The notes beneath the pieces were generated by a model. It made no database searches, was not told the origin of the DNA, and saw only the letters and a program-made list of their open reading frames with translations. 30,469 bases of DNA from a virus: the IMG/VR virus record IMGVR_UViG_3300030012_004588, positions 1-30,469 of that record. One strand, written 5' to 3'. The translations under genes were made by a program, and so were the position numbers. Every line of letters begins with the position of its first letter. The stretch's first letter is position 1. Positions 2,568 to 15,978 of this stretch are shown in pieces.

Positions 2568-2902
2568 CAGTTGCTGTAGAACAGGAGAAGGAAATGGCAG
2601 AATCTAGTAAAGATATAAATTCTGTCAATCCCGTTGATTATGGATGCCAGATTCTTCTTGAAAAAACAACATTAGATACAGCAAACGATAAGTCTTTTCC
2701 TACCGATGCTAGATTAATTTGGTATGTTGAAAATGGCACTGAGTATATTGATCTTACTCGATGTTCTAAAACTTCAAAATTATTTGACATGTACTATGAT
2801 AAGTATGGTAAAGATGCTGTTAAAAAAATTGACTTTGGATTTGGCAGCATTAACCCAAAATTTTGGGGAGTAAAACCTAAGTTAGAAAAGAAAAGAAAAT
2901 GA
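2564..2902 (+). CDS. Conserved hypothetical protein
   Basis: A 112-residue protein starting at ATG 2564. The start is fixed by a strong GGGGAGGA ribosome binding site seven to fourteen bases upstream and by the ATGA overlap with the preceding stop. A second ATG at 2594 is possible. The core reads as mixed alpha/beta (ARLIWYVENGTEYIDLTR) and ends with a basic tail (KPKLEKKRK). No domain is recognised. The small-gene operon context suggests an accessory function during early or middle infection. Confidence 0.8.
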   Translation: MTVAVEQEKEMAESSKDINSVNPVDYGCQILLEKTTLDTANDKSFPTDARLIWYVENGTEYIDLTRCSKTSKLFDMYYDKYGKDAVKKIDFGFGSINPKFWGVKPKLEKKRK

Positions 2903-3183
2903 ATAATAATGATGAAGAAATCAGGGATCAAATTAATGAATTGATTCGTGATGAAATTCAAGATGTAATTAATGATTACGTTGATATGAAAGAATATTCT
3001 AAAAAAAGTGGAATAGGTTTTGTTTCATCAGATGATGAAGATGAATTGAAGGTAAATATTTCTAATATTGAAGTAGATAAACTTATCAAGGAATATAAAA
3101 AAATTAAAAAAAGTGAAAAGTCTAATCTCTCACAAATAAAAAAGTTGGGGTTAGTAGACAAACACGGAAGACCCTTAAAATAA
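2899..3183 (+). CDS. Small charged helical protein
   Basis: A 94-residue, highly charged protein. The first 30 residues are acidic and helical (EEIRDQINELIRDEIQDVIN) and the last 35 are lysine-rich (KEYKKIKKSEKSN), ending DKHGRPLK. The ATG overlaps the previous stop by four bases. No domain is recognised. The stop codon lies inside a T4-type late box (3179-3186), so transcription of the following gene may restart here. Confidence 0.75.
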   Translation: MNNNDEEIRDQINELIRDEIQDVINDYVDMKEYSKKSGIGFVSSDDEDELKVNISNIEVDKLIKEYKKIKKSEKSNLSQIKKLGLVDKHGRPLK

Positions 3184-11926: not shown

Positions 11927-12730
11927 ATGGAACGTATATCACCGAAAAAAGTAAGTGATTTAAAATCAAATTTGTTGAGACCATCTCTCTCAGCATATTT
12001 TCTTGTAGAAATTCCTTTTCCAAATGGAGAACTGGGAACGAAATTAAAAGAATTAGTGGGTGTTAGTCAAGAAAAATTAAATCTTCATTGTTCAGAAGCA
12101 TCTCTTCCTGGTTCATCTCTCGCAACTTATGAAGTTGATAATGATAGAACAGGTGTTACTGAAAGACATGCATATCGTAGAATTTTTGATGGTGCAATTG
12201 ATTTTACTTTTTATATTGATGCTGAAGAGTATCTACCTGTCAAATTTTTTGAGACATGGATGAGAAGTATTGTAAATGAAGATCCAGATTTCAATCCATT
12301 TTCTCAGGGGGTGCCTTCACCTGAACAAATTCCTCCTAATATAAAATCAAAGGTTTACAATTATAGAAATAAATATCCTAATTCTTACATGGCAGATCAA
12401 GGATTAAAGGTATTTAAATTTGAAAGAGATTATAGTAATGTTCTTGAATATGAATTTATTAGAGCATTTCCCAGTAGTTTAAATTCAATGCCAGTATCAT
12501 ATGATGGAAATGATTTATTGAAATGTACTGTTTCAATGTCTTACATAAGGTATGTTATGAACGGACCTTATGCAAACCCATTCAAGTACACTCCCGCTGC
12601 AGAGACTTTCTTTGAAAATAACAGGAGGAGTATTCTTAATGATAATTCTGGACTTAATTTTGGTTTTGATCCAGGAAGGTTTGGACAAGGTGGTAGAATC
12701 ATTCAAGATCCGAACCGAGGTTTAGCATAA
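11927..12730 (+). CDS. 54: Baseplate tail tube initiator gp54
   Basis: A 267-residue protein with a tail-tube-like pattern: LSAYFLVEIPFPNGELGTKL, LNLHCSEASLPGSSLATYEV, RIFDGAIDFTFYIDAEEYLP, VKFFETWMRSIVNEDP and LLKCTVSMSYIRYVMN. The 'CSEASLPGxSLATYE' segment and 'FFExWM' helix are typical for phage tail tube proteins, including gp54/gp19. gp54 starts polymerisation of the tail tube on the gp48 cap. It is divergent from gp4 with a 31-base gap. The TAA stop overlaps a late box. Confidence 0.85.
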   Translation: MERISPKKVSDLKSNLLRPSLSAYFLVEIPFPNGELGTKLKELVGVSQEKLNLHCSEASLPGSSLATYEVDNDRTGVTERHAYRRIFDGAIDFTFYIDAEEYLPVKFFETWMRSIVNEDPDFNPFSQGVPSPEQIPPNIKSKVYNYRNKYPNSYMADQGLKVFKFERDYSNVLEYEFIRAFPSSLNSMPVSYDGNDLLKCTVSMSYIRYVMNGPYANPFKYTPAAETFFENNRRSILNDNSGLNFGFDPGRFGQGGRIIQDPNRGLA

Positions 12731-12762: not shown

Positions 12763-13482
12763 ATGCCTTTACCAAAGATTGCTACACCAACTTATGAACT
12801 TGAGTTGCCATCAACAGGAAAACAAATTAAGTTCAGACCTTTTCTTGTAAAAGAAGAAAAACTTCTTGTCCTTGCTCTTGAGAGTGAGGATACAAAACAG
12901 ATTACTAATGCAATCAAATCAGTAATTAAAAACTGTATCCTGACTAGAGGGATCAAAGTTGAAACTCTTCCTACTTTTGATATTGAATATTTGTTCTTGA
13001 ATATTCGTGGTAAATCTGTGGGAGAATCTGTAGAAGTAAATATTATTTGCCCTGATGATGGTGAGACATCTGTTGAAGTAGAGATTGATCTTGAATCTAT
13101 CAACGTCATCAAAGATGATAAGCACAGTAAGCAAATCAAACTTGATGAAAATATTTTAATGGAGATGAAGTATCCATCACTTGAACAATTTATCAAAAAC
13201 AATTTTGACTTTGATGAAAAAAATGCAATGGAGCAATCGTTTGAATTGATTGCAACTTGTGTTGATAAAATTTACTCTGAGGATGAAGTCTGGGCTGCTG
13301 CTGATTATACCAAAAAAGATTTGACTGAATTTTTGGAACAAATGAATTCGTCTCAGTTTAAAGAGATTGAAAGTTTCTTTGAAACAATGCCTAAACTTAA
13401 GCATACTTTGACAGTAACAAATCCAAAGACAAAGGTTGAAAGTGAAGTTGTGCTTGAGGGTCTTGCAAGTTTTTTCGCATAG
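12763..13482 (+). CDS. 26: Baseplate hub assembly protein gp26 (tail-assembly-chaperone-like)
   Basis: A 239-residue protein: MPLPKIATPTYELELPSTGK, QIKFRPFLVKEEKLLVLALE, then SVIKNCILTRGIKVETLPTF and DIEYLFLNIRGKSVGESVEV. This is the T4-like gp26 pattern (P-x-Y-E-L-x-L-P...I-x-x-R-P-F-x-V-K-E-E-K), a hub-assembly protein now often grouped with tape-measure chaperones. The last codons are AGT TTT TTC GCA TAG, which form a canonical slippery heptamer followed by a stem-loop. A -1 shift would extend gp26 into gp51 (see separate entry). No strong ribosome binding site is seen at the start. Confidence 0.87.
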   Translation: MPLPKIATPTYELELPSTGKQIKFRPFLVKEEKLLVLALESEDTKQITNAIKSVIKNCILTRGIKVETLPTFDIEYLFLNIRGKSVGESVEVNIICPDDGETSVEVEIDLESINVIKDDKHSKQIKLDENILMEMKYPSLEQFIKNNFDFDEKNAMEQSFELIATCVDKIYSEDEVWAAADYTKKDLTEFLEQMNSSQFKEIESFFETMPKLKHTLTVTNPKTKVESEVVLEGLASFFA

Positions 13483-13510
13483 CTCTGGTTCACATGAACC
13501 TAGAGAGCTA
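13470..13510 (+). other. Predicted programmed -1 ribosomal frameshift site, gp26 to gp51
   Basis: The heptamer T TTT TTC (13470-13476) is in the correct phase of gp26 (codons AGT TTT TTC). Three to four bases later begins a stem-loop: AGCTCT (13481-13486) and GGTTC (13487-13491), loop ACAT, GAACC (13496-13500), three bulged bases, and AGAGCT (13504-13509); an extra T13480-A13510 pair is possible. In the -1 frame there is no stop before gp51, and its ATG (13494) is in that frame. The fusion would be 300 residues: 238 of gp26, six linker residues (RIALVH) and the 56 of gp51. gp51 has no visible ribosome binding site. The spacer is shorter than the usual 5-9 bases, but the lower stem could melt. 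Confidence 0.72.
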
Positions 13511-13664
13511 CTACAAACTTAATTTTGCCCTGATGCAGTATCATAAATATTCACTAACAGAGATTGAAAATTTAATACCGTGGGAGAGAGACATTTATGT
13601 TGCTCTACTCCAAAATCATTTGGAAGAAGAAAAGTTAAAACAACAGCAAGCAAATGGATCTTGA
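13494..13664 (+). CDS. 51: Baseplate hub assembly protein gp51
   Basis: A 56-residue protein: MNLESYYKLNFALMQYHKYS, then LTEIENLIPWERDIYVALLQ and a charged, glutamine-rich tail. The 'LxxIExLxPWERxIYxxLL' core is the gp51 pattern and resembles the second half of frameshifted tail-assembly chaperones. In T4, gp51 is needed catalytically for hub assembly and is not in the virion. It starts 11 bases after the gp26 stop with no ribosome binding site and inside a hairpin, so translation may depend on frameshifting or coupling. It overlaps the tape-measure start by 11 bases. Confidence 0.85.
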   Translation: MNLESYYKLNFALMQYHKYSLTEIENLIPWERDIYVALLQNHLEEEKLKQQQANGS

Positions 13665-15978
13665 TGCTCTCCTGAAATCTATAAGAGAAGAAGGCACGGG
13701 AGGCAAGATTGTTCCTGCTAAATTTTTTAGCGAGGACAAATATGATAAGTATTACACTGAATTAATCAGTGAAGGTAGAATTGATGGGGATAATCTTTCA
13801 GCAGATGAAAGAAAAATCGGTGTCAAACAATTTAGAAAAGGAAAGCAAAACTTTAAATCATTTGTTGATAAACTTTTAAATAGAAAGAAACAAGTTGATT
13901 CTCCTTTAGGAAATAATATACCTACTTTAGAGGGTTCTATTGTAATCAAAAAACCAAGTATCGATCCAGAAAAAGTTACTGTTGTCAATACTGAAATTAT
14001 TGATGACTATGGATCTAAACTTGATGATTTAATTGATGAAGTAAAAACAGCACTAGAAATTCAAGATAAGACTGATGTTAAGAAAGAAGAAAAAGAAAAA
14101 AGGAATAAAGAAGAGAAAAGATTAGAGAGCAAATATAAAAAACTGCAAAAAACAACCACGGGATTTTTGAAACCAGTTAAGAGTATTCTTGATAGAATTC
14201 TTGATTTCTTTATTAATATTATTCTTGGTCGAATTGTTGTAAAATTTGTAGAGTGGTTAGGTAATCCAAAGAATAAATCTAAAGTTAATTCTATTATTAG
14301 ATTTTTAACTGATTTTGGTCCAAAGTTAATAGGTGCTTATCTTGTATTTGGAACATCCATAGGTAAAGGAATAAGAAAATTATCTAGAATATTAATCAGA
14401 GGTGGTATTAGAATTGCAGCAGCTGCTGCTTTGATGTTAAAAAAAGTTGGTATTTTAAAAGGTCTTGGTATGGCAAAATTTTTATTAGGTCCCAAAGGTG
14501 CAATTATTGCTACGGCACTTGAAGCGATTGGAACTGCTGCTGCAGTTGGTGGTCTTGCTAGTATGTTGAGTGGTGGTGGAGATAAACCTGAGAATGATGT
14601 TCAAGGTTTCTCTGGAGGAGGTCAAGTAGAACAGACACAACAACAGCAATTTAATTTCTTAAATCCATTCTCTTATTTCTCTGGTCAAGCACAGGAAGCT
14701 ATGGATCAGGCAGATAGAGGTGAAGGAAATTTTGATACATCAACTCCTGTTGGTGCTATGATGGAAAAAAGGAGAAAAACTGCAGAAGCAATGCAAATGC
14801 TTCGGGGATTTAATCAAGGATCATTAGTTTCTGGTCCGGGTGGTGTTGATAAAGTCCCAGCGATGCTTACTGCTGGTGAATTTGTCATGAGTCGTGGTGC
14901 TGTTCAGAAATTCGGTGTTGATACTATGATGTCAATGAACGCTATGGGTGGTGGAACTAATATTCCAACAATGATGGGTGGTAAAATTTATGCCAAGGGT
15001 GGTGGACCTGCTTTAACCAAAGAACAATATAAACTTCTTGATGCAATTTCTGCAGCAGAAGGAACCTCTGCTAGTTATGGAACTGTTTATGGTGGTAAAG
15101 TTGTGCCTGAACTTGCACAAGGCAAAATGACCATTGCACAAGTTTTACAAATGATGGATACTGGAATGCATCCTACCACTGGTGAAAAATTATTCGCATC
15201 AGATAAGCATAATTCTGATGCCACAGGTAGATATCAGATGATGTCATATGTTTTGAAAGAAGAAGCACAAAAAGGAGGATATGATATTAATAAAACTTTG
15301 TTTACTCCTCAACTTCAAGATAAAATTATAATTGATAGAATTACTGAGTTTAGAGGTGTAACACCTGAACTTCTTAAAATCGAGGGTGCAAGTGATAAAG
15401 TCATTGATATGCTTGCACCTGAGTTTGCATCTTTCCCAAATTTGATGGGTCCTGATTCAAAGGGAAATTATGGCACTAATTCTAGTTACTATGGACAGGG
15501 TGGTAAATCTGCTGAATTCATTAGAGAAAAATATAATAAATCACAAGGAACACCTTTATATTCAATAAAAGCATCTGTACCTACTGGACCTACAATTTCA
15601 GGAACCACTGGATCTTCAATTTCAGGAACCACTGGATCTTCAGTCACCAAAAAACCTGAGGGAGTGACAAGAGTTGTTGGTGGTATCATGGATATGTTAT
15701 CGGGTCAAAAAACTGATTTTGATCAAAGAGGTTCTTTTAATTTTAATATACTACCCTTCATGGAGCAGAAAGAAAGTAATGTTAAGACAATTACAAAACC
15801 AAGAGTTGTTGCTCCACCACCACCGATTAAAAGACAACCAAAGGTTTCAGTCATCAACGGTGAGACCACACAACAGATGGCATCAGTTAGTCAGGCAGTA
15901 ACACGAGTGCCTGAACTTCCAGCACCACCCATGTCATCATCTAAGGTAAAACTCTTAGGTATCTCAATTCCTGTTTAA
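13654..15978 (+). CDS. Tape-measure-like tail protein with muramidase-like domain
   Basis: A 774-residue protein directly after gp51, where tailed phages keep the tape-measure gene. Layout: N-terminal charged region; Lys/Glu coiled-coil stretch at about 140-168; hydrophobic segments at about 174-199 and 250-308; a tape-measure hallmark at 394-418 (GPGGVDKVPAMLTAGEFVMS, then RGAV); a lysozyme/transglycosylase-like domain at about 450-610 with E469 in SAAEGTSAS and SDATGRYQMM at 521-530; a Ser/Gly/Thr linker with an exact tandem repeat; and a proline-rich C-terminus. It probably spans the tail tube, sets its length and carries a peptidoglycan hydrolase into the envelope. It may replace T4 gp29, but no direct similarity is claimed. 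The enzyme class is inferred from motifs. Confidence 0.75.
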   Translation: MDLDALLKSIREEGTGGKIVPAKFFSEDKYDKYYTELISEGRIDGDNLSADERKIGVKQFRKGKQNFKSFVDKLLNRKKQVDSPLGNNIPTLEGSIVIKKPSIDPEKVTVVNTEIIDDYGSKLDDLIDEVKTALEIQDKTDVKKEEKEKRNKEEKRLESKYKKLQKTTTGFLKPVKSILDRILDFFINIILGRIVVKFVEWLGNPKNKSKVNSIIRFLTDFGPKLIGAYLVFGTSIGKGIRKLSRILIRGGIRIAAAAALMLKKVGILKGLGMAKFLLGPKGAIIATALEAIGTAAAVGGLASMLSGGGDKPENDVQGFSGGGQVEQTQQQQFNFLNPFSYFSGQAQEAMDQADRGEGNFDTSTPVGAMMEKRRKTAEAMQMLRGFNQGSLVSGPGGVDKVPAMLTAGEFVMSRGAVQKFGVDTMMSMNAMGGGTNIPTMMGGKIYAKGGGPALTKEQYKLLDAISAAEGTSASYGTVYGGKVVPELAQGKMTIAQVLQMMDTGMHPTTGEKLFASDKHNSDATGRYQMMSYVLKEEAQKGGYDINKTLFTPQLQDKIIIDRITEFRGVTPELLKIEGASDKVIDMLAPEFASFPNLMGPDSKGNYGTNSSYYGQGGKSAEFIREKYNKSQGTPLYSIKASVPTGPTISGTTGSSISGTTGSSVTKKPEGVTRVVGGIMDMLSGQKTDFDQRGSFNFNILPFMEQKESNVKTITKPRVVAPPPPIKRQPKVSVINGETTQQMASVSQAVTRVPELPAPPMSSSKVKLLGISIPV
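15595..15642 (+). repeat. Two perfect 24-bp tandem repeats in the tape-measure linker
   Basis: Two identical 24-base copies (15595-15618 and 15619-15642) encode ISGTTGSS twice in a flexible linker after the muramidase-like domain. This looks like recent slippage duplication, so linker length may vary among relatives. Confidence 0.9.

Follow-up and report, generated by a model that had tools for sequence, protein, structure and literature searches.

The 3' end of gene 26 in a T4-like phage record raises the question of whether gp26 and gp51 are translated independently or represent the short and long forms of a single tail assembly chaperone (TAC), with the long form produced by -1 frameshifting. 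In the window (the whole stretch of DNA that was analysed, 30,469 nt), both the short protein and the extension downstream of it match the T4 gp26/gp51 family (PF12322, phrog_150 and phrog_634), and the phrog_150 profile covers the gp26 and gp51 domains together (Table 1). The gp26 ORF ends with ...GCA AGT TTT TTC GCA TAG, where the heptamer T_TTT_TTC is in phase with gp26, as a preceding sequence-only reading had stated, and is separated from the stop codon by three bases (GCA, one sense codon) rather than by the four given in that reading. After the slip, the frame reads CGC ATA GCT CTG GTT CAC ATG... and, as also claimed there, runs without an intervening stop, from 13476 to the stop codon at 13662-13664; its translation, RIALVHMNLESYY..., comprises 62 aa, which yields the previously proposed fusion of 300 residues (238+62). 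The first ATG of gp51 (13494) is in the same -1 frame, and a search for an SD (Shine-Dalgarno)-like sequence before this ATG found none, in agreement with the earlier remark that gp51 has no ribosome binding site. The locus thus has the arrangement of a TAC-N/TAC-NC pair, i.e., a short ORF that ends in an in-phase slippery site and a second ORF that is open in the -1 frame.

Table 1. Features of the gene 26/51 locus (positions are those of the window)
Feature	Position	Strand	Description
Upstream gene, tail-tube-like protein	11927..12730	+	PF23849 E 3e-7, phrog_45 E 6e-33
Gene 26, short tail-assembly chaperone (TAC-N)	12763..13482	+	239 aa; Pfam PF12322 T4_baseplate E 4e-74, phrog_150 E 6e-81
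Internal Shine-Dalgarno-like GAGGG, probable frameshift stimulator	13456..13460	+	9 nt upstream of heptamer
Slippery heptamer T_TTT_TTC	13470..13476	+	in phase with gp26; T_TTT_TTN kept in 292/295 distinct relatives
-1 frame extension, gene 51 domain (TAC-C)	13476..13664	+	62 aa as fused; phrog_634 E 4e-29 and C-terminal part of phrog_150
Gene 26 0-frame stop TAG	13480..13482	+	ORF reading
Downstream RNA stem-loop	13480..13510	+	upper stem 13487-13491/13496-13500 (GGUUC/GAACC); lower stem 13480-13486/13504-13510
ATG usually annotated as gp51 start	13494..13496	+	within loop/stem of the hairpin; lacks an SD; Met conserved only in close relatives
Next gene, probable tape measure protein	13654..15978	+	774 aa; position, length, weak tape-measure PHROG matches

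The string TTTTTTC by itself proves nothing because it is not enriched in the window, where 26 occurrences are seen against 22 expected, i.e., it is not rare; its count was accordingly rejected as evidence for a signal. Among the 45 in-phase X_XXY_YYZ sites detected in the 22 window genes that were checked, the site at 13470-13476 is the only one with a -1 frame that continues beyond the end of the gene for more than 50 codons. Elsewhere in the window, in the ORF at 2899-3183, an in-phase A_AAA_AAG lies roughly 13 codons from the end, and the -1 frame that it opens continues for about 31 codons beyond the stop; this is probably a chance occurrence.

It is conservation, beyond the string or its position in the window, that settles the reality of the predicted signal. 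The heptamer is exact and located at the same place in all 80 of the nearest IMG/VR relatives compared. In a wider set, compiled from the relatives found with six queries together with annotated phages and reduced to 295 distinct loci that reach gp26 identity down to about 25%, T_TTT_TTN is found in phase, with 0-2 sense codons before the stop, in 292 loci, although, because the loci are interrelated, the counts do not represent independent events. The last codon of the heptamer is TTC in 248 of the 292, TTA in 21, TTT in 21 and TTG in 2. At least 274 of 277 relatives carry the gp51 domain motif in the -1 frame. The slippery site and the relative frame are therefore kept among the relatives, as befits a TAC-N/TAC-NC pair: the conservation of the heptamer at gp26 ends that the sequence-only reading had proposed to check is observed, and the loss of the heptamer or change of frame in close relatives that it had named as fatal to its proposal did not occur. 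Codon usage across the site is consistent with this. Codon 237 is TTT in 291 of 291 sequences, with most other Phe columns mixing TTT and TTC, and the preceding codon is AGT, TCT, AAT, GAT, GCT or GGT, which encode five amino acids (Ser, Asn, Asp, Ala and Gly) and always end in T. The persistence of this T through amino acid changes, together with the fixed TTT, shows selection on the nucleotides and not only on Ser-Phe-Phe.

The three exceptions are Vibrio D533 (L090), Serratia 3M (L092, Ackermannviridae) and Enterobacter KMB20 (L097), the last of which carries a T4-type duplication. In Vibrio D533 and Serratia 3M, a non-canonical site (CTTTTC and GTTTTC, respectively) takes the place of T_TTT_TTN; in these Ackermannviridae-type loci (L090:3561-3761 and L092:3564-3767), the -1 frame is still open and a gp51-like domain is present. 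In one further locus (L060:4716-4840), an in-frame deletion between CTAA repeats has taken out both the hairpin and the gp51 ATG, and the -1 frame stays open; this locus was left out of the evidence because the deletion may be an assembly artefact.

Comparison of the relatives also reveals a strongly conserved GAGGG-type sequence upstream of the heptamer, which was absent from the sequence-only reading and probably is an addition to the signal that acts as a stimulator. At 7-9 nt before the heptamer, pairing with the anti-SD sequence at -4 kcal/mol or below is predicted in up to 96% of the relatives, compared with 3.5% at control positions. The Glu232 codon is GAG in 72% of the sequences, against 10-57% in other Glu columns. 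The conserved Glu-Gly residues account for part of this putative SD-like signal, but not for the synonymous preference for GAG.

Downstream of the heptamer, the RNA is predicted to fold into a stem-loop with a minimum free energy of -14.5 kcal/mol (z = -3.9 for 44 nt; z = -1.9 on 84 nt). The bulged stem-loop noticed previously at this position is real, but it consists of 12 bp (7 + 5, with a 3-nt bulge and the stop codon inside the lower arm), not 11. When the 45-nt segments that follow the heptamer are compared with shuffled sequences, the mean z is -1.7 in the window group and -1.9 elsewhere, as opposed to -0.3 for gp26-internal controls. The expectation that the stem would be conserved holds for its upper 5-6 bp, which covary, with double changes in GGUYC/GRACC within the window group; most of the lower stem is not conserved, being largely codon-fixed or broken, and its middle part does not covary. 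The full 12-bp stem was therefore rejected as a conserved structure beyond the upper 5-6 bp, given that the stop codon and a Tyr codon dictate the outermost lower pairs and the middle ones are mostly unpaired in relatives. In the window group, 75% of all cells of the stem are paired, versus 23-44% when the stem is slid, and the sampled sequences of other lineages form different hairpins at the same place.

An alternative is that gp51 is a separate small protein, made by ribosomes that reinitiate at ATG 13494 right after termination at TAG 13480. An ATG immediately past the stop is indeed found in the window and its close relatives, being kept in 98 of 101 distinct window-group sequences, and some distant relatives, e.g., S-CRM01, nt-1 and YB07, have a stop-start overlap (TAATG or TGATG). 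However, the missing SD of gp51 counts against this route, and in 54 of 277 relatives none of the first 11 codons of the -1 frame is ATG, GTG or TTG. Such start-less loci occur, for example, in Synechococcus phage S-SSM4, Methylophilales phage Melnitz, Pseudomonas phage Astolliot and an Aeromonas phage CC2 sequence, in the records of which gp51 is either unannotated or annotated from an internal start only. Furthermore, coding conservation reaches from the annotated ATG back to the slip site: among 239 distinct downstream sequences, codon 4 is Leu or Met in 237 and codon 6 is His in 214, whereas the position of the annotated Met is mostly occupied by M, N, E, T or D. Conservation of the residues upstream of the annotated Met, set against the variability of the Met itself, means that the stretch between the slip site and the ATG is translated. 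Reinitiation also leaves the fixed bases of the T_TTT_TTN codons unexplained and cannot account for the gp26-like domain in T4 gp51. Taken as the explanation of the locus, it is very improbable; as the main route for the family it is excluded by the sequence comparison, and some reinitiation from ATG 13494 in the window itself could in principle take place. The remaining possibility, that the poly-T tract only mirrors a conserved Ser-Phe-Phe terminus and the frame relation is incidental, draws on the conservation of the SFF residues themselves and has a negligible probability, considering that the residue before FF varies under an invariably T-ending codon, that the second Phe can turn into Leu (TTA or TTG) with TT retained, that the gp51 domain lies in the -1 frame in nearly all relatives, and that the SD-like element and the hairpin are both in register.

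Thus, -1 frameshifting at the end of gene 26 is very strongly supported by these comparisons, from which the heptamer, the frame, the SD-like element, the hairpin and coding across the junction all emerge, and genes 26 and 51 almost certainly form one TAC unit whose long form would be made by a -1 shift with upstream and downstream stimulators. Under this mechanism, most ribosomes would terminate at TAG 13480 and release TAC-N (gp26, 239 aa), and a presumed fraction would pause on T_TTT_TTC, with the upstream GAGGG paired to the 16S anti-SD and the downstream hairpin opposing unwinding, both presumably as stimulators. Both Phe-tRNAs would then slip by -1 and translation would run to 13664, giving TAC-NC of 300 aa with the junction ...SFF-RIALVH.... 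As in lambda G/GT, the short form is expected to coat the tape measure, and the long form to recruit tail-tube subunits.

The T4 group appears to have arrived at the same two forms differently. T4 gp26 (208 aa) and T4 gp51 (249 aa) both belong to PF12322, but the phrog_150 match of gp26 extends only up to position 235 of 282, whereas that of gp51 spans 13-280, i.e., the whole fusion. When aligned to a profile built from 135 frameshift fusions, T4 gp26 stops at the junction (...GLKEFFELL) and T4 gp51 runs through it, and the Enterobacter KMB20 counterparts behave in the same manner. These relationships indicate that the T4 group uses two genes instead of a frameshift; T4 is without the frameshift signal, its gp51 being a single-ORF copy of the fusion, and its genes 26 and 51 are adjacent and divergently oriented. 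The abstract of Vladimirov, Gautam and Davidson is said to describe T4 26 and 51 as short and long forms and, reportedly, frameshifting as conserved in several T4-like groups. The simplest history for T4 would be a duplication followed by fusion in one copy. Unlike T4 and KMB20, the locus in the 30-kb record contains no second copy of the gp26 domain fused to a gp51 domain. Among T4-like phages other than the T4 group, gp51 is likely to exist in many lineages solely as a frameshift product, made under a conserved three-part signal (SD-like GAGGG, T_TTT_TTN and hairpin) in which lineage-specific hairpins were swapped at a fixed place, with the T4 group later exchanging the signal for a gene duplication, one copy with the stop and the other with the frames fused.

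The chaperone function of the gp26/gp51 pair is suggested by its position and by the short/long logic. The tail-tube-like gene is directly upstream, and the gene that follows is probably the tape measure gene, judging from its position, its length and weak matches to tape-measure PHROGs; a long gene is found at the same place in nt-1, phiM12 and CC2. In Synechococcus phage S-PM2, the gene after gp51, in the tape-measure position (L082:3176-6180), encodes an ADP-ribosyltransferase-like segment near the N-terminus (PF01129, E 9e-6) and a phage tail lysozyme domain (PF18013, E 2e-21). A Foldseek search started with the AlphaFold model of gp26 (pLDDT 86) identifies the HK97 tail assembly chaperone 2ob9 with a probability of 0.75 (2.7 A over 62 columns; E = 1.2, not significant), the sole PDB match with a probability above 0.2 among the matches listed, which may be taken as a hint only; the viral structure library yields gp26-type baseplate hub proteins. 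The G/GT-type short/long pair proposed by the sequence-only reading is supported by the heptamer, the frame, the loss of start codons, the junction peptide and the single-ORF fusion in T4 gp51.

Lambda gpG/gpGT similarly combines a short protein with a -1 frameshifted long form made in minor amounts, and its coding region immediately precedes that of the tape measure, but the pair uses another slippery sequence, and no sequence relationship is claimed. The lambda slip site is farther from the stop than that of the window. The signal of E. coli dnaX consists of an internal SD about 10 nt upstream, which is stimulatory, a slippery heptamer and a downstream stem-loop. The window signal resembles this three-part signal, with GAGGG in the place of the dnaX stimulator; in contrast, the dnaX heptamer is A_AAA_AAG rather than T_TTT_TTC, and the dnaX frameshift product is the shorter one, not the longer. 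A stimulatory effect of internal SD sequences on -1 shifting has been described (PMC10885494). TAC-N of Vandenendeviridae and Andersonviridae ends in a T-rich site (GTTTTT) with a conserved -1 shift; the -1 frame is open there and the C-terminal piece has been misannotated as a gene of its own, but these are other phage families with another slippery sequence (PMC12846349). For T4-like phages, TACs were identified by Vladimirov, Gautam & Davidson (Virology 2022, 566:9-15), as cited in PMC10885494 and PMC12846349; according to these citing papers, some T4-like phages carry a separate short gene and a long fusion gene (PMC10885494), and poly-T slippery sequences occur in T4-like TAC-N genes (PMC12846349). 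As far as these citations convey, the published T4-like gp26/gp51 TACs are from the same phage group as the window and follow the same short/long logic, whereas the window is a record of an uncultured marine T4-like phage. An explicit cyanophage case was not found in the literature searched, where the 2022 study was known through the citing papers. The window is thus one more clear example of the standard long/short TAC arrangement, already known in kind and published in 2022 for T4-like phages; beyond the published point, the present comparison contributes the SD-like element and shows how widely the arrangement is conserved.

In many T4-like phage records, gp51 either appears as a gene of its own, named 'hub assembly catalyst', or is missing from the annotation; in such records, it would be the C-terminal part of the frameshifted chaperone. 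The phages that use frameshifting also offer an explanation for T4 gp26 and gp51: a single chaperone in a short and a long version.
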